Part shown: positions 3,041 through 51,792 of the stretch, piece by piece
How the letters are laid out: each line of letters begins with the position of its first letter
Numbering within the stretch: the first letter of the stretch is position 1
From: Nymphaea colorata
Lineage: Eukaryota; Streptophyta; Magnoliopsida; Nymphaeales; Nymphaeaceae
Direction: 5' to 3'
Length of the DNA stretch: 64,000 nt
Assembly (NCBI RefSeq): GCF_008831285.2
Contig: NC_045142.1
Coordinates: 11,980,716 to 12,044,715 of the forward strand
Translations under genes and position numbers: made by a program
Notes under the pieces: generated by a model
Database searches by the model: none
Seen by the model: the letters and a program-made list of their open reading frames with translations, nothing else
What the model was told of the DNA's origin: nothing

Positions 3041-3519
3041 CCTGAGTTCAGTGTAGCCAAGTACCACGTACCATGGGGTTACCACCCGATGCAAGCCGTG
3101 AAATTCAAGACAAATATCTAAAGGGGTGGTACTTATTTTACATTAAATGGCAGCCAAAGTGTAAATAAGGATATAAAGTGTAAATAAACCGATTTACGCG
3201 GGAGTGGCGTCGGCAGTTGACTGTCGCTAAAAGGTGGCTGAGCAACCTAAAGGCGTGATCCTGAATTTTGCTCAAAACTAACGGCATTTACGTTTATCTC
3301 CATGAATAGGACACAGATTTCTGTTTTCCAAATTTTTAAAGTTAATTTAATTTTTTTAGATTTATTTAAATTCATAAACTCAGCAAATAGACGAAAATTA
3401 CAAGACTGGTTTATCTTATCTTCTATTTATCTTCAAGCAAGGCAGGGAGACAAATAATCTCCAACAAATTCTGAGCACATTAAATTCTTAATCATCTTCA
3501 TCCTCCGTTATTCTGTGCT

Positions 3520-3759
3520 GTTTCCCGTCTCTCTCTCTGTGTGTGTGTGTGCTTATCCCCCACCACAAGTGGATGTGATCTTGGCGGTCGGCCAGATGCA
3601 CGGTGGTCGGTCTACTCCTCGCTCTGCTCCCCACGCAACCGGTGGGGACGAAGCCGTGAGAGACCACCATCCTTCTTCGTCGCTCTTAACCCCCTTCTGC
3701 TCTGTCAAGATGCCCAATTCTTTCCCCCCGTTTTCCTCCTTTCTCCGGCCATCATCCCC
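3520..3759 (+). promoter_or_regulatory. Probable leader of the trihelix gene
   Basis: A pyrimidine-rich block with CTCTCTCTCTGTGTGTGTG sits about 220 bp before the chosen ATG. The coding frame stays open upstream of that ATG only through non-ATG codons, so this part is read as 5' untranslated sequence. No sharp TATA box was identified. Confidence 0.4.
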
Positions 3760-4581
3760 ATGGTGGCCTCCTCCTCCTCTTCTCCCCCACCGCCTCCTCC
3801 TCCCCGGCCGGTACGCCCCTCCCCTACCGGCCGAGAGGATTGCTGGAGCGAAGGCGCCACCTTAGCGCTCATCGAGGCCTGGGGCGATCGACACATTAAC
3901 CTCAGCCGCGGCAATCTCAAGCAGCAGAACTGGTTGGACGTTGCCGACCGCGTCAACGCCCGTTTCGGCGGTCTCCGCCACCGTAAAACGGACTCTCAGT
4001 GCAAGAACCGCATCGACACCCTCAAGAAGAAGTACAAGCTCGAGCGTGCCAAAGTCGTTGCATCCGGCGGCGTCTTCGTCTCTAGGTGGCCCTACTTCTC
4101 CCAGATCGACGACCTCGTCGGCCCCGGGAAGGGCCAAACTCCGGCCGGAGCCGGCGTTCGGACACTCCACGTTCCTGTCTTGCGATCGCCCCGCTCCGTC
4201 CCCTCTCCGAGGCCTGCGAACGGGGAAGAGCAAGACCTTGCGCGTAACCAGGTCGTCAATTCTGCGGCCAATTCCGGAGCATCTTCGAGGTCGAGGGATT
4301 CGACAAAGAGTTCCCCGGTTGCTGGTGGGGGTGGTGATGAAGACGATGGATCGGAGGGTGGATTGGGGAAGATGGGAGAGGTGGGTGCGGGGTTTAGGGA
4401 CTTGGCAAGGGCAATTATGGGGTTAAGTGAGGTATACGAGAAGATCGAGAGCTCCAAGCAGCAACAAATGGTGGATCTGGAAAAGCAGAGGATGGTGTTC
4501 GCTAAAGAATTGGAGTTCCAGAGGATGCAGATGCTCATGGAGGCCTATGTCGAGCTGGAGAAGATGAAACGACGATTTTGA
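3760..4581 (+). CDS. Trihelix (GT-factor) transcription factor, ASIL/SIP1-like
   Basis: Intronless gene for a 273-residue nuclear DNA-binding protein. After a Ser/Pro-rich start, residues 27-121 form a trihelix domain: DCWSEGATLALIEAW opens helix 1, NWLDVADRVN is helix 2, and SQCKNRIDTLKKKYKLE is helix 3, followed by the RWPYFSQIDDLVG closing motif typical of the ASIL/SIP1 clade. A Ser/Gly/Asp-rich linker follows. The last 60 residues (GLSEVYEKIESSKQQQ to EKMKRRF) look like an amphipathic coiled coil that would mediate dimerisation. I chose the ATG at 3,760 because it is the first ATG in frame, has a good context (CCCATGG) and leaves the domain whole. Family members bind GT-type promoter elements, and ASIL proteins repress embryo genes; the exact target here is unknown. 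The gene is GC-rich compared with its flanks. Confidence 0.88.
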   Translation: MVASSSSSPPPPPPPRPVRPSPTGREDCWSEGATLALIEAWGDRHINLSRGNLKQQNWLDVADRVNARFGGLRHRKTDSQCKNRIDTLKKKYKLERAKVVASGGVFVSRWPYFSQIDDLVGPGKGQTPAGAGVRTLHVPVLRSPRSVPSPRPANGEEQDLARNQVVNSAANSGASSRSRDSTKSSPVAGGGGDEDDGSEGGLGKMGEVGAGFRDLARAIMGLSEVYEKIESSKQQQMVDLEKQRMVFAKELEFQRMQMLMEAYVELEKMKRRF

Positions 4582-7455: not shown

Positions 7456-8440
7456 TTAAGAATCCTACTTGTAAGTGCCAGAACAATGCCAAACCAAGTG
7501 CAAGGCTTCTTTTGTTTGGTGAAACAAGTGAATAAGTGATAACATTGTTGTACATTTCAACTATTCATCTTTCAACTAATTTATGACACGTTGATGTTTC
7601 ACATGTGATTCATTTGTAATACTGACATGCTTCTAAACTTAAGTCTAGTATCAAGATCTTAACATCTTCTGTCTTGATAGCTTTAGCTTTCTTGACATGC
7701 AGCTTGTGATTGTGATGAAAGAATTAGCTTGGCGACTAGTAGTATGTGCTTACTGTTGCTATTCCTAGAGGCTCCTGGACATCATGAAGCCATGTTGGAA
7801 CAGCATATATGCATGTGAAGGTGATGGAGACATTAGAACTTTGTTCTCCTTCTTGGACGTTGCAGGGTGCATTTCAGATGGAAATGCTGATGTAGTTAAA
7901 TTCTGTCCATATGATTTATCGTCTCATGCAGAATAAACGTCGCAAGAGGTGATGAACCATCTCGACTCGCAAGAGGTGATGAAGGATGATTTGATGTCTA
8001 AGGATGAGAGGTAGATAGCGCTCTCAATTTGATGTGTGCATTAATAGGGTAAACTTATTCTACTCTCCGAACCTCGTGAAGGGGTCCTTCTCTCCTTTTC
8101 TCTATGAAATAGTTCCATGTATCTGGATTATCAAACGTCACTGAAAATAAATGATGCAATTTGTAGTGCGTGTTTGTTTGGTATTAGGAATGATGGAATG
8201 GTTCAAGCTTATGAAAAGTTCAATGTCTTCCCACCATCTCATGAGACAAACGTGAAAATGCTGAGTAATACTATACAATGTGAATATATTATCTGAAACC
8301 GGTGTACTCAAACTCGAGGCCCCACATCTAAATCAGAATGAATGAAATAGGATGCAGTCTGGACCTGTAACATATGAGACTAATACGTCCTGTCCAGAAA
8401 AAAGAAAGACTCAACAAGCCTTTGCCTGAAAATGAATCAG

Positions 8441-8760
8441 AGCTGGTCCATACTGATATTACATCTATTCAAGATACTGTTCTTGATATATTTTCAGACG
8501 GCAAACACTGTTTTAGTAGAGTAGAACTCAAATAAGAAGGTGTCATATCAGAAAAAAGATTAAAAACATACCTGACTAACCCATTCTCCATCAAGCTTAG
8601 AGCTGGTCCATACTGATATTACATCTATGCAAGATACTGTTCTTGATATATTTTCAGACGGCAAACACTGTTTTAGTAGAGTAGAACTCAAATAAGAAGG
8701 TGTCATATCAGAAAAAAGATTAAAAACATACCTGACTAACCCATTCTCCATCAAGCTTAC
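8441..8760 (-). repeat. 160 bp tandem duplication carrying an exon-like segment
   Basis: Two nearly identical 160 bp copies abut (8,441-8,600 and 8,601-8,760); I saw one substitution inside the unit. On the minus strand the unit holds an acceptor-like CTACTAAAACAG, an open stretch beginning CLPSENISRTVS, and a donor CAG followed by GTATGT. In the higher-coordinate copy the frame reads on to KLDGEWVSQ; in the other it meets a TGA. This is what duplication of an exon with its flanking intron would look like. The protein family is not recognised. Confidence 0.6.
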
Positions 8761-11790: not shown

Positions 11791-14700
11791 ACACTCACCC
11801 TCAAGCTGGAGCATAGATATCAATCATGCTCAGCTTGTTACAACCTCTCAGGAAATCACCTATGGGAAGAGTCTTGGTAAAAATATCAGTTGTCTGATCT
11901 TCTGAGGAGCATGAATAGTGCTAATAACTCCTTCTTGAACTAAGTCTCGAACATAGTAGCAATCCACTTCAATAGGTTTCATCCTCTCATGAAAGACAGG
12001 ATTGTTTGCAATATAAGTTCTTGCCTTGTTGTCACTACATCTTCATTGGGACATTCATTGAAACACCCTTCATTGGGACATTCATTGAAACACCCAACTC
12101 TAGAAGCACTGATCTGACCCATGACATTTCCACCGCACTTTGAGCCATGGCCCTATATTCCAACTCAGCATTAGATCAAGCCACTACATTCTGCTTCTTG
12201 CTCTTCTAAGAAATAAAGTTACCTCCCACAAAGACACAAAAAACTGTAGTAAACTTCTTGTCATCTATAGATACTGCATAATCAACATCTCTATACGCTT
12301 CTATGTCAACACCTTTGCCATTTCTGAACCACAACCCCTTTTCCGGGGCTAATTTCAAGTATCTGACAATCATTAGAGCAGTGTCCCAATGCAGGGGTTT
12401 CTCCATGAATTGACTTAGCATATTCACAGTGAAGCTAATGTTAGGGTGGGTGATCGTCAAATATAGCAGTTTTTTTATTAGAGATCTGTAAGATCTAGAA
12501 TCAAAAGGCTCTAATTCATCATTATGTATATGAATGTGGGGATTCATGGGAAGTGTGATAGGTTTAGCCCCCAATAAACATGTTTCGTGCAGAAGATCAA
12601 GAACATATTTTCTTTGAGACACTACAACTTCTTTACTACTACGGGCCACCTCAATACCAAGAAAATAACGGAGTTATCCAAGGTCTTTTGTGACAAAGTG
12701 TTTATGTCGAAACTCCTTTGTTTGAGCTTGAACTATATCTTGATTACTTTTCCCAGTGAGAACAATATCATCAACGTATACAATCAATAACACTATACCA
12801 GATGTACCTTGCTTGATAAATAACGAGTGATCAAGTTGAGATCGTCGAAATCCACACTTAAATAAAATCTCAGTTAGCTTATGGAACCATGCACGGTAAC
12901 TCTGTTTAAGTCCATAAATAACCTTCTTTAATTTGCATACCTTGGAACATTCCCCCTATTGCTCAAATCCAGATGGTTGCTACATATAGACGGTTTCAAA
13001 AAGATTTCCATACAAGAAAACATTTTTCACATCCAACTGAAATAGATGTCACTCTCACTAGACAACAAGGGATATAATCAGTCGAATAGTGCCCAACCGA
13101 GCACGGGCGAAAAGGTCTCAAAGAAGTGGACGCCATAAGTCTATGTATATCTTTTAGCGACAAGATGTGCCTTGAACCGTTCAACTGAACCATCAGAATG
13201 ATACTTGATGGTGAACACTCATTTGGAGCCAACCACATGACAGTGCATCGGTGAATCCACCAAGTCCCAAGTCTCCCAAGAGATAAGAACATCCATTTTC
13301 TCCTACATGGCTTGCCGCCACCGTGAATCTAATAAGGCTTGATGGTAAGAAGACAAGATAATGTGGCTAGACAGAGCTCAACCAAACTGCACCAAATTGT
13401 ACTCAGTCAGTAGAGATAAAATTAGAAATTGGATGTAGTATGCACTGTCACTTGCCCTTGCAAATAGCAATGGGGAAATCATCTGCAGTATGGTCATCAT
13501 TTAAACATGAGTCAGTCTTATCAATGGAGCTTACCTCTTGAGAAGACGTTGGTGGGCGGTTGGGAGAGGGACCGAGATGACGAGTGTAAACTAATGGAGG
13601 ATCAAGGAAACGTTCACATGACATAGATTGAGATGGAGGGATCGACTCAAGTGACACTGGTGGAATAGGAAGAAGAACAGGCACAGGTATCTCAGACGGA
13701 AAAGGACTCAAAGAGGAAAAATAAGGACGAGACTCAAAGAATCTAACATCCGTACTGATAATCTTTTTCTTGGTCTGGGGATCAAAGCACTTATATCCCT
13801 TTTAATTGGCAGAGTATCCAATGAATACACATTTGATGGCTTGGACAATAAGTTTGTTTTTGTCTGGACCTAGGATATGGACAAATCAAGTGCATTCAAA
13901 TACTTTGTGAGGTATATGAAATAATGGTCAATCTGAATATAAAAGTTGAATAGAAATACGTTCTTGGATGGCTGACAAGGGTAATCTGTTAATGAGATAG
14001 CATGCAGTAAGAATAACATCACCCCAAAAGTAGGTAGTCATGTGCGAATGCAATATGAGGGTACAAACCACATTTAGAAATTACCGATGTTTGCATTCGG
14101 TAATACCATTTTGTTGGGACGTGTGAGGACAAGTATATTGAGGTCGAATTCCATGATTGACGTAAAATTAAAATAGAACAGAGGATTTGAATTCAAGAAC
14201 ATTATCAGTACGAATATTTTTGACAATGAAACCAAATTGAGTTTTTATTTCTTTGACAAATTTCGGAAGAATACATATGACTTCTGATTTTTTCTGTAAC
14301 AAGAATATCCAATTGACTCTAATAAAATAATCAACTAAAACAAAATAATACCGAAAACGCGAGTGAAAAGGAACCCGACTAGGACCCCACACATCCACAT
14401 GAATGAGATCAAATGGACTTTTGACCAAATGGACTCCGACTCGAAGGAAAGCTGTTCCATGTAAGTTTGCCTAACTGGCAAGCATCACATAAGAAGGACT
14501 CTGATGCAGTAATACCTGAAAACATGGGACGAAGTTGGACATTGATGGATGACCCAATCTGAGATGCCACTGGAAAGGAGAAATCCTTGAGGAAAATGAT
14601 GATGCAACAACATTTACTGGGACAGACAGGAAATAGAGACCCTCATGTTCACGACCACCACCAATCACCTTCTCAGTTAGTAAATCATGAAAAGAACATG

Positions 14701-26796: not shown

Positions 26797-29700
26797 CTAG
26801 ATTATCTCATAAAATGACAAAAAGTAAGATAAGCTGCATGCAGTCAAGAAGCTCAACCATATATCTTTCACCCCTTTCAAGGTTTCAGCAATAGACTCAG
26901 TTAGACCCACTGTAAACCTGCAATCATTAAGTGAAGGATTGACGACAGTGATCATACCAGAGCCCCCAAAGTAACAGCTCTCTGCCACCTGATTGTGCAT
27001 CTGATAGTAGCTGTTGAAGGCGTATGAAGCATTATAAGGCCAACCAATCTCAGAACAAGAGCCTCCAGGGAACAAGGCAGTGCAATCAGCAACAGAGCAA
27101 GCAAACTGAACATTGGTTGATACATTAGATAGTTCCTTGTTATCATTTACAACACACCATCTTGCAGGAAGATACTGGACATTCTGAGCATTCACAAGTT
27201 CGTTTGAACCATGTCCTATGTTGGCCTGATATTTTGCCTGACCATCAAATGTGAATATTCCCCAATGTCTCTCAAAGTTGCCAGTAGCAATGCGTCTTTG
27301 ATCTTCATCCAACAAGCTAAAGATATAAACCTCCAGAGGAGATTTATGTGGACGAAGCGGAGTGCCACTCATACTTGACAAGTGATCAATCAATCCATTT
27401 ATAAAGGTACTTGCATTTGAAGGAGAAGCATTGTGAATAGCTCCTTCAGTCGGCCAGCCTACCTGTCCAACTATAATGTCCATATTATCAAATCCTAGCC
27501 CAGACAAGGCTGCTATCAGAGTATCCAAGCTAGCATCAAATGCGTTTTTGTACGCATTATGACCATCCTTGAGAGAATGTGCTGTTGGCTGAAAGAGCGC
27601 AAAATCAGAAGAATAGCTTTTGTTCTTGTAAAGGTTCATGAAAGGGTTGACATTCAGAACAAAGGGGAAGTTATTCTTTGCAAGGAACGTGAGAACCTGA
27701 AGCATGGTCCGGTTCAGATCATGTCGGAACTGACCTTTTGATGGAAGACCTGATGAAGATACTAAGACATCAAAACTGGAGGGGACCACAACCTTCACAT
27801 TGCTACCTAGATTTGCTTTAACCAATGCTCCATGGATATTGATCAATGCGCCAAACACAAAGGGCTGAAATTGATCTCCATAGCTCTGGAGAAATGGCTC
27901 GTTTCCAACTGCAATATACCTGCATCATCAACAAATGCCAACTTCTTCACTTTAACATAATTTTTCTGATGAATGGCTCCTCAGCATTTATTACTCTATA
28001 TTAGTATCAGAAGGAACCTTTTGCTCCATCATGCAGTATAAAAAAGGATTATCAGAAATTTTGCACCACAAGTTTGAGAATTTCTTCAATCTAATTCTTA
28101 GTCCTCTAAACTTTATGCTGTTTAGAATTATGAAGTGGCGAAAGGTCACTATTCTTGGAGCATCAGGGATTCAGAAAGCAGCAGCACATGTCCTGTTGAA
28201 TCTTAATGAATTCAACATGATCATCCGTCCAACAAGGCCAATCAAAGGACACAACATAACGTTTGCAATATGAACAAAAGCAAGACAATCATGTGCTTAT
28301 GCTTTACCATCATTAGCAACAACCACAATTGTTGTTTAAGTCACTCTCTAAACTTGGTATTTTTTTCTCTTTATCAAGAGAAGATGACCAAGGTTGAATG
28401 CTATCAATAATGAGATAAGGTTCACTGAAACTGCTAAATTTGACAGCCCTGATGATTTAAGGCTAATTATCAAGATTATGAATATTTAAGTAAAAGATTA
28501 TCAATCCTTGATGTAAAGTGATTGAAACAATTCATTTTTTTGTTAGAAGGGCTGTGAAAGGTGAATGAAAATAAAGGCCTGAATCACTTAAAATCAAATT
28601 GTTGATATGTTGATGAACTATCATGAAAGCAAGGAATCAGGTGAATCAGGCTGCCCATGATAATCAATAATATATAGGCTAAGGAATAGCTGGAAATTTT
28701 ACAGTAAACTTTATACTATTCTTGGGGAAAACGACAACCATATCTTTTCACAGAATGCCTGCATTGTGACAAGCAATGCCAAGCTTATTTGCAATTGTTT
28801 AAATTACACAAGATTGAAAGCAAGGTTATCTTTTATGGGAGCACTTTTGGTCAAACATTTGACACTCCTCTCGACTATCGTAACTAATTTGGCTGGTTTA
28901 TGCTAGCTTACTTAAGTTAGCATAGCTCTTTGTCTGTACTACACATGGTTATCTTTCATGGAAGAACTTTTGGTCAAACCCTTGATAGTCCTCGGTAACT
29001 AATGTGGATGCTTTACACTAACATACTAAAATTAGCTTAACTTAGCATGGCTCTTTTCCAACACTAAAGTGTTTTATTCAAGTTCTAAATAATGTATTCG
29101 ACTTCATGGTGGTACAGATTGAAATCTTATTCAAGCAAGTTAATTTTCATTAAAAAAAAGTGAAGCCCACAAAACTTCAATTGTTATTCCTTTTCCTACA
29201 TGTCTCCAGCACCATAATTTTTCTTACTTTAAAACAAGGACATTTCTTGCAACTTCTTGAATAGGTAACACAATTCTGTGAAGCTAGAATAAAAAAAACC
29301 TCCTCCAAGTAGAGTATTTGAGGTTGGCTGATACTCAGAGCCGATAAAAGAATACTCAATCATATGGCAGTCCAGAATCATCAAAGGTAGGAGATTGAGA
29401 AAAACAGAGTAAGGTTATATACGATGGATCATGGGCCAAGAAATGCAGCTACTGGGCCTAAAAATCAACCAAAAAGATAAATTAAAGGATGAACAAAGTC
29501 ATAAAGACCTTGACAAAAAAATGTAAGGTCATGATGGAAAAGGCATGAATTAATAAAGTCAGATGTTCTATTTCATGGTAAATGTGTTGTAATGGACAAA
29601 GGAAGCAATCACTAAAAGGTAAATTAGTTCCCTTTAAAACGTTAGAAAACCATCTAAGTCTTTTCCTGAGTTTCGGAAAAGTTCCTAGGCACCATCTCTA

Positions 29701-38116: not shown

Positions 38117-38734
38117 CGACTCTCTCTCTCTCGCGCGCTCTCTCTCGGTGTTGCATTTTATGTAAATTGTGTAAAAAGACGATGGTAGGAATGTTTGAAC
38201 ACCCAGCCGACTAGGTTGGTTAAACATAGAAAATCCAGGAATTATCGTGACCGAATCATGGGAGTTTTAACGAGTTAAAAGTGGGCTTAAGCAAGTAATG
38301 TATAGGTCTGATCTAAGTGTGCATATTACACATGTAAAAAAAAATGTAGTTATAAAAGATACCAAAATCACTTATCATATCCAACTTTAGTGCAATATAT
38401 GTATATAATGTATACTAAATACGACAGTAAACCTTGTATATTTTATGTGCGCAAATACATTAGTATACATAAGTGTAATATATCAATCATAATGAATCAA
38501 ACTTACCAAAAATATATTTTATGTCAAAAATGAAGTTGTCAAAACTAAGTCGAGTACCTAAGTTGACCCGTCGAATCACATGTCAATTTACAAGAATCGA
38601 GTCCCCGAACCACTGGGTTTTACATGCTTGGATGGTAGAAGTAGAATGTGATATGTAATATAATGCTTCGCTGGTGACAACTGGAACTCAACTTTTTAAG
38701 CAAGTTCAATTTTTTCAGTTTTGTGGACTCTCAC
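38117..38734. other. AT-rich stretch, nothing supported
   Basis: Begins with the 3' flank of the small gene, including a CTCTCTCGCGCGCTCTCTC tract near 38,130. The remainder is AT-rich without features. Confidence 0.5.
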
Positions 38735-38990
38735 TAGAGCTGCACGCAAACCGAGCCAAGCTCTTGGCCAGCTTGAGCACGGCTACGCTCAAAAAACTCG
38801 AAGTCGATCTCGATTTGAGTTCAACAGCTCTTGGGCCAGCTAGAGCACTACTCGACTCAAAAAACTCTAAGTCGAACTCGATTTGAGCTCAACAAAAACA
38901 AGCTCAAACTCAATTTGACGCTGGACTTGACGATACAATGTCGAGCTCAAACTCCATTCTTTTAACTCGTTTAGCTCGTTATCATAAAGG
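38735..38990. mobile_element. Truncated TAGGGCTG-family element
   Basis: It begins TAGAGCTGCACGCAAACCG and contains doubled AAAAAACTCGAAGTCGA and AAAAAACTCTAAGTCGA phrases about 66 bp apart. No right terminal repeat was found. Confidence 0.5.
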
Positions 38991-39428
38991 TAAAGCAAAT
39001 GTCAGATTAGATTTGAACAAAACGGGAAAAGCACAAATAATAACTTTTTGAATGATGAAAGTGCCCCTGAGGGGCAGCGGTTCAAACAAGTTGTTGAAAG
39101 ATTTTTATTTATTGTGGGCAAGATACACCAACATGGTGGTGAGTGGCATGATTTAACCTTGAAAACCGTGGACGTTGGACCTTTTATTGGAAAACACCAA
39201 GAGTATTTAGACTTGCCAATTGCCATTCATTGTTTTCAGGATTTTCCCATAATCATTACTTAGGAAACTCAAAATCAAGAAGGAAAGGGGAACTTCGTGG
39301 TAATTTAGCTGTTGTATTCTTGTGTTGTGTTATGGAGAGTATAAAAATCATGTAGTACATTTTCAAATTAATTAAATGAAAAGAAGAAGATTTCCTTCTT
39401 GCCAGAAATTCATTGTACAGTCTCTGAC

Positions 39429-41060
39429 ATGGTATCAGAGCCATAAGGGTGATGGCCAACACCGAAGCAAGGGAGAAAGACATACAAGACAACTCAAATG
39501 AATCATATGTTTGTTTCTCAGGTGATGTACAATCCTTTTTACATTAGTCACTCTGACAACCCTAAGAACGTTCTTGTTTCTCAATCTCTTAATAGGAAAA
39601 TTATGCCACTTGGAGTAGGGTTATGATGATGGCCCTTTTGGCAAAACATTGAACTGGTTGTATTGATGACACCATTATTGAATCAAAGAATGTTTATTGG
39701 ATGTGTTTCAATGACATATCTGAAGCATCTCCTTGGGGTGTGTTTCAATGACATGATTGTTTCTTGGATTATGAATTCAATGAGTAAAGAAATAGCTGGC
39801 ACTATTGTTTATACCACTATTAGATAGGTTTGGCGAGACTTTAGAGAGAAATTCACTCAAAGTCAAGCCCCTCACATTTATCAAATTCAAAGTGTCATTT
39901 TTTTACTTCAACAAGACACCATGTTGGTTGCATCATATTTTACTAAGGTAATGTTTTTCCACAAGTAGACATGAGATAGTAGATCAAGTGTTTTGCTAAT
40001 ATTTCAAATAACTGTCTCGAATTCAAATTGATTATGTTTCGCTTCTTCCTTGAAGAAACATGATCAAACAATTCCCAATCATGGTCCTTGCGAATCGGAT
40101 CATCCATATAGGATACAAAAAGAAACTCTAGATATTTGATGTTTTTCTCTTTGAATAAGATCTCAATTCCATCTATTGTTTCATTAGATATCTTACAACT
40201 AGAATCTCTCTCTTTTTGGTCCAGATACTCTACCACTGCGAACCCCAGTTAGATTAAGGCATGATACTCATTGAAATGCTCTATGAATCTGCTGTTTCTC
40301 ATCTCATTTATTTAGACAAAGATTCTGTTTTTTACGAATGGCAAATCTTTTTCAAAACATGGAGTGTGAATCAAACCCATCTTTGAATTGAAACTAAGAT
40401 ACTGATGCAAGTTCTTCCCTTCTGAATCAGATAGTGTTAAAAGTTTTAGGGGATGAACTTAGCTATACTCCACTATTCCTGAGTGTTCTTATCGAGCCAT
40501 GAAAACCTATTCTGAGCAGCTTGAAAGAGAAAAGGTCATTCAGTTCTTGATGGGATTGAATGACTCTTACAATGAGATTAGAGGTCAAATTCTACTTCTT
40601 GATCCTCTACGAAAATCTATGCATTGATTCTTCAAGAAGAAAAATTGTATTAGGCAAGGTGGTTTGGTGCATCTAATGATGAGACTACTACACTTGTTGT
40701 TCTACAAAATGATCATGACAAGCAAATGGTGCATAACATGGTAAGTCAAGCCTATTTGCAGAAGGCATTTGGACATATAAAAGAGAAATCTTTGAAGTAA
40801 CTGGATATCCTCCAAGACACCATTTATATGATCCGAACTTCAAACCCTCTGGCAGCAAATGAAGCATCAAATCAAGCCACAACTGGTTCTCATATGACTC
40901 TACTGGCTGGTAGTGGTAGCTCAATTGGTGAGGGACAAAGCACTAAAGGTGCTGCACTATACCAGCATTCACTTTGGAGGAATACGACTAACTTTTATCC
41001 CTTGTTAAGCATCAACCAACCAACTTTAACGATCAACATATCATTTACCACAAGCTAATG
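39429..41060 (+). mobile_element. Ty1/copia gag region, interrupted by plastid DNA
   Basis: TGGTATCAGAGCC at 39,429 is the initiator-Met tRNA primer site typical of copia elements. The sequence before it, with a TATAAAAATC box near 39,342, should be the 5' LTR, whose start I could not fix. Gag follows: NYATWSRVMMMALLAKH, then IYQIQSVIFLLQQDTMLV and SYFTK, where the 39,948-40,436 insertion begins. It resumes [11 protein letters not shown], then AMKTYSEQLEREKVIQFLMG and LNDSYNEIRGQILLLDPL. Stops and frameshifts abound. Protease, integrase and RT are not seen downstream; a LINE fragment follows instead. Confidence 0.8.
39948..40436 (-). other. ycf2: Nuclear plastid DNA (NUPT): two ycf2 pieces fused
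   Basis: On the minus strand, 40,434 to about 40,272 matches a middle part of plastid Ycf2 ([32 protein letters not shown]). From about 40,271 to 39,950 it switches without a gap to a more N-terminal part ([64 protein letters not shown]). The order is inverted relative to the plastid gene while the strand is the same. In-frame stops show decay. The 489 bp block interrupts a copia gag between the Lys of SYFTK and the Leu of LKVLGDEL. No target duplication is visible, as expected for end-joining capture. Confidence 0.88.
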
Positions 41061-41099
41061 ATTAGCGTTAAGTTCGTGGAAGAGAGAGAGGCTTTGAGT

Positions 41100-43250
41100 G
41101 GCAGGTCGTTCCATGAAGGTTTTTCCATCATCTCCTCCTAGGTATGGGGAGCTTGCGAGGATGTAAGATTTCATGGACTTCAAGTTCACAACACTCGAAC
41201 GAGAGGCTTTTCTTGTTCATTTTGCCCAAGCTGAAGCATGAATCTAGCTCTGAGACAGCGCTCTTGGTGCCTTGCTGGTCAGGTCTTTATTGGGAATTGG
41301 TGGCTTCCATCGCTTGATTTGGATGTAGAAACTTCATTCAAGGTACCTATATAGATTCACTCCCCAAGTTAGCATTTCTCTTATGGAACGACATCATCTT
41401 TAATGCCATTACAGACGCCTTGAAGGATCATTTGGTTTCAATTGACCCTTTCACGGTTGACATAGCCCACACTGACTATGAGAGGATTTGTGTGGAAAGT
41501 CCCTCTTAACTACCAACCAGTTAATGAAGTGGAAATTCAAGTGGACGAATGCGTGAACCAGGTGTATCCCATCAACTATGATGATCACATCAGATCTTGC
41601 CCCAAATGTAAGTCTAATTCCATCTCCCTGAAAGCAGTCCTGTGGTCAGGGATGGAATGACAACATACTCCCAAGATGTTGATCCTCAGCAACTGTGGAC
41701 AAAGGTTCAGACAAGATGCTGCAGGCATAAGGAGATCAGTCGCCCAGCTAGAAATCACTCCCCTGTTCAAGGCAACTGGTTCAAATGGCTGGATAAAGAA
41801 GATGATGCTCAACCCACCCCTATTGTCACATCTTCGCTTGACCATAGACCCATGGCCGTTACTTCTAAGCACGTGAAATGAAACTTGGTTCCTTCTTTGG
41901 ATGTGCAAGTGGAGCAGGAGGCAAAACCTAAGAAACGCCTAAGAGTTTCAACGCAGTTGTTGGATATTTCTCCTGAGCCAAAGATCCCTGCCTCCTGCTA
42001 GAGCTCTTCTCCTTGCCCGCCTTCCATCTCAAAGACTTCGTTGAACCCTCTTAACAGCTTCAACCAGAGATCATCGCCTAATCCTTTGGAGGAACCTGAA
42101 TGTCCCCTAGGCTTCACATTTGAGACCATGAATTCCACTCCCCCAAATCAAGTGGAGGAAAGAAAAGGTCGCGTGCAGATCCCCTTAAGAAAGATTGTCA
42201 TGGCCATTCCAAAATGTCAAAGGACCTCTATAAGCTTCCATCACTAACAGAGTGTGTGACCTTGGCTGGCATACACAATTTTGTGGCAAATTCCCGATGG
42301 GATTTCCATGTGACGAGTTGCAGAAGTAGTACCCGTTCAGATCTCATCTTCCCTAGTAGTCAGACTTCATCCAAAGAAAATCTAACCCACAACAATCCAG
42401 ACCTATCATGTGGCTGCATAGGAGCCTGCCTGCAGCAGGAATGTTCCCTCTAATTTCTTCTTGATGAAGATTCAGGCCTAAAATTTCAGGGCGTAAGTCC
42501 ATGCAGCAGCAAGGTGTGCTCTTCGACACATTTGTTTCCTTTTTATACTATGCTTCATAACTTGGATATGCAGCAGCATCAATACTCTCATTTTGCATGG
42601 TTTCACAATTTGGAAGAAAATTCCATGTTCGGTCGTATTATTGGGCCTTGGAACCCAAAGGAGTTCCCATGCTGGAATATAATTCACTTCTCCTTTGAAA
42701 CTGCTTGGGGTCTTACTAGAAAATTGGATAGTTCGCAACCTGAGGATTTACATAAGCCCCATTTCTGTGAAAAGAGCTGTCGAATTCATTTAAGGAATGT
42801 TGTTTGGTCTGTTTCTTGCCTTTGTGTGATAACTGGAAACTTTAATGCTATGAGAGACTATAATGATAAGACTAGGGGCCCTCCCAGCCTTCCCTCTTGT
42901 GAGATTTTTAATTCCTTCATTATTGGTTGTAACCTTACAGTTGTGGAAGATCTTAGACATCATTTTACCTAGGCTAACAATAAAACGGGCCCTTATTGAT
43001 TATAACATGTACTTGACCGCTAAAGAGGATACATTCATCGATATTGCAGTGGACCTGCTAAGAAAACTTCATCAACCATATGACAAGGAACTACATTTCA
43101 ATATTAAAAACATGCAATGAAACATTTTTCTCCAACTTAAAGAGTGATCGCAATTCCTTCTTTTAAAGTTTTCAGCTGAACCACTTTTGCAGCTTTGGAA
43201 CGTAATTTATAGAAGAAATTGAAAAGGCTAACTTACATTATTTGGTAATG
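41100..43250 (+). mobile_element. LINE (L1-type) fragment: ORF1 end and ORF2 start
   Basis: ORF1-like sequence includes YERICVESP with NYQPVNEVEIQVDECVNQVY and a CPKCKS zinc-knuckle remnant near 41,480-41,620. ORF2 endonuclease pieces follow, with CVITGNFNAMRDYNDKTRG, PSLPSCEIFNSFIIGCNLT and EDLRHHFT then ANNKTGP (42,830-42,990). Everything is frameshifted, and the reverse transcriptase domain is absent, so the element is truncated. Confidence 0.78.
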
Positions 43251-49640: not shown

Positions 49641-49764
49641 TCTCTGTCTCTCTCTCACATGGCCGTCGTTCTTCCTTTGTCTTGTTTGCTCACGTAGCCA
49701 TAGGGACTGAGAGAAGAAGGAATCATCGACGTTGTGGAGAGAACCGACACCATAGCTGCGCTGC
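49457..49764 (+). promoter_or_regulatory. CT-rich 5' region of the EXO70 gene with an upstream ORF
   Basis: CT microsatellites lie at 49,457-49,480 and 49,609-49,657. An upstream ATG at 49,659 (context CACATGG) opens a 12-codon ORF (MAVVLPLSCLLT) that stops at 49,697, 67 bp before the EXO70 start. If transcription begins in or before the CT tract, this uORF would lie in the leader and could lower translation of the main ORF. Confidence 0.45.
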
Positions 49765-51792
49765 ATGGACGCGTCGGAGAAATCCCACCTGATGGCTCCC
49801 GGCGACGAGCATGACCACCACGATGACAAAACTCAATCCCCTTCGACTCCATCCTCGAGAATCCGCTCTCTCTCCCTCAAAGGCGATGCCGTGGAGCCCC
49901 AAGTCGATAACAGCCACGACCATAATGACGAAGAGCCTGCAGGCGGCGATGGCGAAACCGACGGCGACGGAAATGATCATTCAAATGAAGATGAGCCTCT
50001 CGAACTCACTTCTGAGAAGCTCGACGCTTTCTTGTCCGGCCTTCCCTCCGCAGAGAACCCCGAGATCCCACCGTGCGTCGAGCGGTTCCTCGATGGCCTC
50101 GCCGAAAAGATAAGGAGGCACGAGTCCGGCGCGGAGAAGGTCGATTGGCGCCATGATCCCGGCCACTTCCCCGCGTTCATTGCACGACTAAACCGCCTGG
50201 TTCAGGCCCTCTCCTCCCTCGAGGAAAGCCCTCCTCCAATAGCGAATAAAGCCGGCGTCCTTCTCCATCAAGCCATGTCATGTCTAGAAGATGAGTTCCG
50301 ACTGTTCCTTGAAGAACCGCTCCGTTCCGGCCACGGGGAGCACGAATCCGCCGCCTTGGGGAGGACGAAATCGTTGGCCGCCACCCCTGACGATCGCTGC
50401 TCCATCGCCGGACCGCCACAGTCGCCCAACGCCCCCGACTCGGCTCCCGCCGAGCCGTATACGCCAGAGAAGGTGGCGATACTCGCCGAGATATCGAAGG
50501 TCATGATCGTCTCGGGGTACGATACGGAGTGTTGTCTCGCCTACAGCACCGCCCGCAAGACTTCTCTGGACGCATCCTTCTCGGAATTGTTGGGCTCCGA
50601 GCGTCTCACTATCGAGGACGTGCACAAGATGCACTGGGACGCCCTCGAATCGGAGATCGCCAAATGGATGAAGGGCTTCCGCCATTGCCTCAGCTTCCAC
50701 CTCGCCGGAGAGCGCCGGCTCTGCTGCTCGATCTTTCTCGAGTCGTCGCAGCTCTCCGGCCCCGTCTTCGCCGACCTTGCCCGCGGCCCGGTGATCCGCC
50801 TCCTCAACTTCGCCGAGGCCGTCGCCATGACCCGCCGGTCCACCGAGCGCCTCTTCAAGTTCCTGGACATGTACGAGGCCTTCCGCGACTCCAGGCAGCT
50901 TACCGACGAGCTCTTTGCCGGCGAGGCCTGCGCGGAGATCCGATTCGAGATAGACTCGGCAAGAACGCAGCTCGGCGAGGCAGCCATCGGCGCCTTCTCC
51001 GACTTGGAGAATTCCATCAAGGGAGACTCGGCTAAAACGCCGGTACCAGGCGGAGCGGTTCACCCGCTGACCCGGTATGTCATGAATTACCTGAAGCTGG
51101 CCTGCGAGTATAAGGAGACATTGCGGCAGGTGTTCGAAACGTACCGGCCGAAGCGGGACGGAGGGGCCGGAGGAGATGACTCGAGATCGTCCCTGTCAGT
51201 GCAGGTGGTCGGAATCATGGACCTATTAGACCACAACCTAGAGACAAAATCCAAGCTCTACAAGGATCCATCTCTGAGCTACATATTCTTGATGAACAAT
51301 GGAAGGTACATAGTGCAGAAGGTGAAGGGTTCGGAGATCTACAGCCTGCTGGGAGATGACTGGTACAGGAAGAGATCCTCCGATCTCCGGCAGTACCACA
51401 AGAACTACCAGAGGGAGACGTGGGGCAAGGTGTTGGCGTGCTTTAGGGATGAAGGGTTGCACAGCGGTGGCGGCGGTAGAAGTGGCGGTGGAAGTGTTTC
51501 GAAGCCGGTGCTCAAGGAGAGGTTCAAAATGTTCAACGCCATGTTTGAGGAGATACACAAGAATCAGTCGTCGTGGATCGTCAGCGACGAGCAGCTGCAG
51601 TCGGAGCTTAGAGTGTCCATATCGGCGGTGATAATTCCGGCGTACAGGTCGTTCCTGGGGAGGTTCAGTCAGTACTTCGACCCCGGGAGGCAGACTGACA
51701 AGTACATCAAGTATGGGCCAGAGGATATGGAAACATTCATTGATGAGCTCTTTGAAGGGACGCCGGCGTCCATGATCAAGAGGAAGGCTTGA
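49765..51792 (+). CDS. EXO70 exocyst subunit, probably EXO70C-like
   Basis: Intronless gene for 675 residues. EXO70 is a subunit of the exocyst, which tethers secretory vesicles to the plasma membrane; plants have many paralogues. The N-terminal 80 residues are Asp/Glu/His-rich and probably disordered. A helical segment with LDAFLSGLPSAENPEIPPCVERFLDGLAEKI follows. The EXO70 C-terminal domain runs from about 290 (HWDALESEIAKWMKGFRHCL) to 665, with LLNFAEAVAMTRRSTERLFKF, VQVVGIMDLLDHNLETKSKLY, LSYIFLMNNGRYIVQKVKGS, LLGDDWYRKRSS and the ending AYRSFLGRFSQYFDPGRQ then KYIKYGPEDMETFIDELFEG. The PPCVERF segment before the domain and the C-terminal wording suggest the EXO70C clade, known from tip-growing cells, but I cannot exclude another clade. 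GC-rich, intact, start at the first in-frame ATG after a leader. Confidence 0.92.
   Translation: MDASEKSHLMAPGDEHDHHDDKTQSPSTPSSRIRSLSLKGDAVEPQVDNSHDHNDEEPAGGDGETDGDGNDHSNEDEPLELTSEKLDAFLSGLPSAENPEIPPCVERFLDGLAEKIRRHESGAEKVDWRHDPGHFPAFIARLNRLVQALSSLEESPPPIANKAGVLLHQAMSCLEDEFRLFLEEPLRSGHGEHESAALGRTKSLAATPDDRCSIAGPPQSPNAPDSAPAEPYTPEKVAILAEISKVMIVSGYDTECCLAYSTARKTSLDASFSELLGSERLTIEDVHKMHWDALESEIAKWMKGFRHCLSFHLAGERRLCCSIFLESSQLSGPVFADLARGPVIRLLNFAEAVAMTRRSTERLFKFLDMYEAFRDSRQLTDELFAGEACAEIRFEIDSARTQLGEAAIGAFSDLENSIKGDSAKTPVPGGAVHPLTRYVMNYLKLACEYKETLRQVFETYRPKRDGGAGGDDSRSSLSVQVVGIMDLLDHNLETKSKLYKDPSLSYIFLMNNGRYIVQKVKGSEIYSLLGDDWYRKRSSDLRQYHKNYQRETWGKVLACFRDEGLHSGGGGRSGGGSVSKPVLKERFKMFNAMFEEIHKNQSSWIVSDEQLQSELRVSISAVIIPAYRSFLGRFSQYFDPGRQTDKYIKYGPEDMETFIDELFEGTPASMIKRKA

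Follow-up and report, generated by a model that had tools for sequence, protein, structure and literature searches.

Two plastid ycf2 pieces in swapped order within a decayed copia-type gag of Nymphaea colorata

The locus and its surroundings

The stretch of Nymphaea colorata nuclear DNA analyzed here (64,000 nucleotides, hereafter the window) contains a block of plastid-like DNA of 488 bases at 39947-40434, with the remains of a copia-type retrotransposon on both sides. Elsewhere in the window, the plus strand at 49756-51792 carries an uninterrupted frame of 675 residues for an Exo70 exocyst subunit (PF03081, E=4.6e-126), and the minus strand at 26797-27924 carries an open frame encoding a glycosyl hydrolase family 17 domain and an X8 domain, presumably of the glucan endo-1,3-beta-glucosidase type; the two differ in GC3, 0.74 for the Exo70 frame vs 0.39 for the GH17-X8 frame. 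A further open frame at 3484-4581 (plus strand) has a trihelix-like Myb/SANT-like DNA-binding domain (PF13837, E=2e-17). The open frame at 12206-12673 (minus strand) gave no Pfam match at E up to 0.01; by eye we take it to resemble copia reverse transcriptase/RNase H. At 8439-8759, two 160-base copies lie head to tail and are 99% alike, which suggests that they are probably a recent tandem duplication. Neither a tRNA nor an Rfam family at gathering thresholds was found within the window, and Pfam matches to Sir1, DUF5678, DDE_3, DUF4219, Bubble and Sprouty were below the cut-off and were taken as chance.

The left flank of the block starts with the primer-binding string TGGTATCAGAGC at 39430, which we take to be the complement of the initiator-Met tRNA, and extends on the plus strand to 39947 as the 5' part of a decayed gag whose last codon is AAG (K). 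Its translation matches PF14244 (Retrotran_gag_3, 'gag-polypeptide of LTR copia-type') with E=8.1e-07 and 29.2 bits at a cut-off of 24.1, and it is by this match that the target is identified as a copia-type gag; the most N-terminal left-flank peptide that we tried (29 aa) had no Pfam match. In the right flank (40437-40640, plus strand), the translation continues the gag and then passes into another frame, YRAMKTYSEQLEREKVIQFLMGLNDSYNEIRGQILLLDPL, and the gag frame is disrupted both before and after the block. Further downstream, at 41000-42970, the copia relic seems to be truncated by a LINE-like stretch, as we assume from an endonuclease-like VITGNFNAMRDYNDK at about 42.8 kb; a Pfam search with three pieces gave no LINE match.

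Two pieces of ycf2 joined in swapped order

When translated on its minus strand, the block gives a ycf2-like peptide spread over three frames. In the left part (piece A, 39947-40267), this peptide matches residues 187-272 of the Pfam profile PF05695 (Ycf2) with E=1.1e-44, and the piece also includes the bases that immediately precede this region in the gene. At the upstream end of the left piece, a 46-residue peptide matched no Pfam-A family, and that stretch is supported by the DNA match described below. The right part (piece B, 40267-40434) matches residues 1166-1199 of the same profile with E=6.9e-13 and continues in order, in another frame, over residues 1200-1225, where the match is weak (E=0.052; 11.2 bits at a cut-off of 29.2). 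Overall, the seven peptides searched against Pfam-A comprised three with a Ycf2 match (one of them weak), one with a gag model below the cut-off and three unmatched. A PDB chain named 'Protein Ycf2' (8xku_D) also matches both pieces, with E=3.1e-33 for A (residues 187-272) and E=7.3e-09 for B (residues 1179-1212); the PDB search with piece B listed three unrelated chains as well, at E values of 0.054 to 0.24.

A contiguous reference at the DNA level came from a Ycf2 peptide scan of bacterial and archaeal genomes, which gave one relative among 18 pattern matches: a 4,179-base scaffold (SACZ01000022.1, 76 of its bases being N) filed under Prolixibacteraceae bacterium JC049. Since it is one single open ycf2 frame of 1,393 residues, this scaffold is evidently a plastid ycf2 fragment contaminating a bacterial assembly. 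Two scans of viral contigs yielded 35 pattern matches in one, none of them related, and zero pattern matches in the other, and a plasmid scan gave no relative either. In blastn, piece A aligns with reference positions 485-164 (308 bits) and piece B with 3352-3187 (166 bits), both on the minus strand. Chance similarity was rejected: among 500 dinucleotide shuffles of the block, the top score was 40.1 bits, compared with these 308 and 166 bits. The rest of the window had no further match to the reference at E up to 1e-3; as the reference spans only part of ycf2, more plastid DNA may be present there.

Pfam, the PDB chain and the blastn alignments agree on a plastid origin, and the chimeric ycf2 that the earlier note had proposed from the letters is borne out by all three. 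One contiguous ycf2 match was tried and rejected: the two segments are 2.7 kb apart in the reference and in the opposite order there, so that the window, when read in the ycf2 sense, has B before A where the gene has A before B. The reversed order on the same strand that had been claimed is what we find. That the block is in nuclear DNA is indicated by the copia-type gag on both sides and by the Exo70 and GH17-X8 frames within the same window. Measured against the contiguous ycf2 of the reference scaffold rather than the plastome of the host, the block is a join of at least two non-contiguous plastid fragments, as in complex nuclear plastid DNA (complex NUPTs).

The interrupted gag and the junctions

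When the translations of the two flanks were joined without the block, they matched PF03732 with 24.9 bits (profile 13-77), above the cut-off of 24.1, compared with 20.8 bits (profile 13-68) and thus below the same cut-off for the left flank alone. Right-flank peptides alone gave no gag match in Pfam. As controls, we joined the left flank to shuffled right-flank peptides, which gave 19.8-21.6 bits with none of nine reaching 24.1, or to its real continuation into the block, which gave 20.3 bits. Because only the joined flanks reach the PF03732 cut-off while both kinds of control fail, we conclude that the flanks are one copia-type gag interrupted by the block. This result and the PF14244 match of the left flank agree with the insertion into a copia gag suspected earlier. 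The codons AAG (K) and TTA (L) adjoin once the block and two following nucleotides are removed, just as the earlier note had described for a block placed between adjacent, intact codons, and the view that no gag codons of the target were visibly lost at the insertion site is supported. The simplest reading is that the copia element was already in place when the block was inserted.

At the left junction, the gag reads ...TTTTACTAAG into plastid GGTA..., with one G at 39947 common to both. Pieces A and B meet in the same way: the C at 40267 is both the last base of A and the first of B, for which reason the switch placed earlier near 40,272 exists as a direct switch but is about 5 bases off. At the right junction, the plastid DNA stops at GATAG (40434), followed by TG at 40435-40436 (plus strand) and then by the resumed gag, TTAAAAGTT. 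These two nucleotides fit neither the reference nor the gag frame, and they are either filler or eroded plastid or gag bases; the absence of filler asserted in the earlier note is therefore true of the inner junction but not of the right border, and the borders it gave (39948 and 40436) are right almost to the base, the actual ones being 39947 and 40434.

The three junctions, read from left to right, have a 1-bp overlap, a 1-bp overlap and 0 bp with a 2-nt filler, signatures that are not above chance. They fit end joining without proving it, since an overlap of at least one base is expected at about 44% of unrelated joins and the 1-bp overlaps do not exceed this. In nine plant genomes, whose nuclear organelle inserts PMC6215612 divides into simple, complex and mosaic classes, inner junctions are described as blunt or with microhomology, the signatures being enriched in recent mosaic inserts and end-joining signatures occurring mainly among recent inserts. 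Since that report ties the signatures to recent inserts and the present block is diverged, its one-base overlaps may be partly a product of erosion.

A direct repeat at both borders, as in a target-site duplication, was not found between 39918-39952 and 40429-40465 as exact words of at least 4 bp, a comparison that an eroded repeat would escape. The words common to the two regions were TGTT (39922/40435) and TTTTA with its sub-words (39938/40444), and none of them lies at both borders. Insertion as a mobile element was rejected as the origin of the block, its borders being without a direct repeat.

The same flanks bear on how the composite came to this site. It is conceivable that the plastid pieces were joined in the mitochondrial genome and that the composite later moved to the nucleus: plastid pieces are common in plant mitochondria, and the nuclear sequence by itself does not distinguish the routes. 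We regard this detour as improbable, however, because the gag directly flanks both sides and the insert is without further sequence of other origin. The composite may also have been captured as part of a copia lineage and amplified with the element, a scenario that finds some room in the fact that no second DNA copy of 38400-42600 was found within the window at E up to 1e-5; but the block is antisense to the gag, its stop codons break the gag frame and the element is decayed, all of which make such a history very unlikely.

Divergence and decay of the block

Piece A differs from the reference at 46 of 304 comparable sites (15.1%, K2P 0.171) and piece B at 24 of 160 (15.0%, K2P 0.168), these counts omitting 21 N sites, 3 gap sites and the shared end bases 39947 and 40267 (one in each piece). 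Because A and B are equally diverged from the reference, their divergence fits a single insertion event, while at 304 and 160 sites two events of similar age would also be possible. The 15% is a divergence from the ycf2 of another species and mixes change in the plastid lineage with change in the nucleus; since the reference is not the ancestor and both kinds of change are mixed, we assign no age to the insert.

Piece A has a 1-bp indel and stop codons, and piece B has a 2-bp length difference from the reference, so that the length differences over the whole block are 1 and 2 bp. Among the 68 classed differences from the reference, 42 change an amino acid, four create stops and 22 are silent, and by codon position 1, 2 and 3 the differences number 20 of 151, 20 of 153 and 30 of 160 sites. 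From these counts, the decay of the block looks mostly neutral, with little sign of coding constraint; given the stops, the frame breaks and this weak constraint, the block is most likely without function. A scan for bacterial promoters around the block was uninformative (6 sites vs 7.1 expected).

With the reference taken as a proxy for the ancestor, C to T or G to A accounts for 27 of the 70 differences in the direction from reference to window and the reverse for 12 of 70. A C-to-T and G-to-A bias is described for NUPTs in PMC7037861. Ordinary divergence between plastids may account for part of the 15%, part of this directionality and perhaps the 2-bp difference of piece B.

Mis-assembly of plastid reads into the nuclear contig would produce a block of plastid DNA in the same place, but such reads would be expected to give an open frame, whereas the pieces here are about 15% diverged from the reference with stops and length changes, and one gag spans both flanks. 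Judged from these sequence features, mis-assembled plastid reads are disfavoured, and we consider an artefact of this kind extremely unlikely.

A complex NUPT and the origin of its two pieces

With a probability of roughly 85%, we interpret the block as a complex NUPT whose ycf2 pieces were captured by end joining within an existing copia copy. Plastid DNA would have been released into the nucleus, a double-strand break would have occurred in the copia copy already present, and the plastid DNA would have served as filler in the non-homologous (or microhomology) end joining of that break, pieces A and B having been joined before or during the capture. Double-strand break repair is reported in PMC12181080 to suppress plastid-to-nucleus transfer.

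The class is already described in print, and the block, lying in a dead retrotransposon, is an unremarkable member of it. Complex NUPTs are presented as a recurrent class in PMC6215612 and PMC7037861, the latter describing rearranged NUPTs, for some species NUPTs co-located with transposable elements, and, in tobacco, end-joined mixtures of chloroplast segments. Like the complex NUPTs of these two reports, the block consists of non-contiguous plastid fragments joined in nuclear DNA, and its junctions would be compatible with the blunt or short-microhomology kind known in the class; it has in common with them the C-to-T and G-to-A bias and the co-location with transposable elements seen for some species in the class. 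Nothing categorical sets it apart from the class as described there, the particular feature here being that a single gene supplied both pieces and that they lie on one strand in swapped order. The tandem NUPTs of PMC7037861 likewise have the same orientation, head to tail; they duplicate one fragment, however, whereas the present pieces do not overlap in ycf2.

The earlier note had explained the block as end-joining of two plastid fragments. This explanation is right in its general kind and the junctions are compatible with it, but two separate fragments are only one possible source, as one rearranged ycf2 molecule fits equally. That variant overlaps with the complex NUPT reading and is a special case of it, and we hold it tentatively, as possible but short of an even chance. 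A piece of about 3.2 kb could have been circularised, with the end of B joined to the start of A, and then opened again, its middle part being lost; alternatively, a repair polymerase could have jumped back on the same template while copying ycf2, the copy being captured. The pieces are on the same strand and merely 2.7 kb apart, and their inner junction has 1 bp in common. A typical plastome has about 155 kb with 26-kb inverted repeats. When such a plastome was assumed, a second random fragment fell within 2,945 bases in 7.6% of draws, and did so on the same strand in 3.8%; a single-molecule origin is favoured to this extent because independent fragments would be this close and on the same strand in only about 4% of cases. 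This probability is post hoc and concerns a single locus, though, fragments freed by the lysis of one plastid could lie close together in any case, and no feature that we found in the sequence sets a rearranged molecule apart from ligation. If a single molecule was indeed the source, part of the 'ligated fragment' class of NUPTs would be copy-based or circle-derived.

The presence of ycf2 had also been read as an argument against a grass, whose plastomes were said to lack the gene. This was overstated: the taxonomic argument is weakened because about 1.1 kb of degraded ycf2 persists in Poaceae plastomes according to PMC5472289. An insertion of great age might, in addition, have reached the nucleus before grasses lost ycf2.

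As a complex NUPT, the block is one more scar of DNA transfer from plastid to nucleus, in this case within a retrotransposon. Such scars are informative only in bulk, where a genome-wide count of nearby fragment pairs on the same strand would bear on random ligation vs single rearranged molecules.
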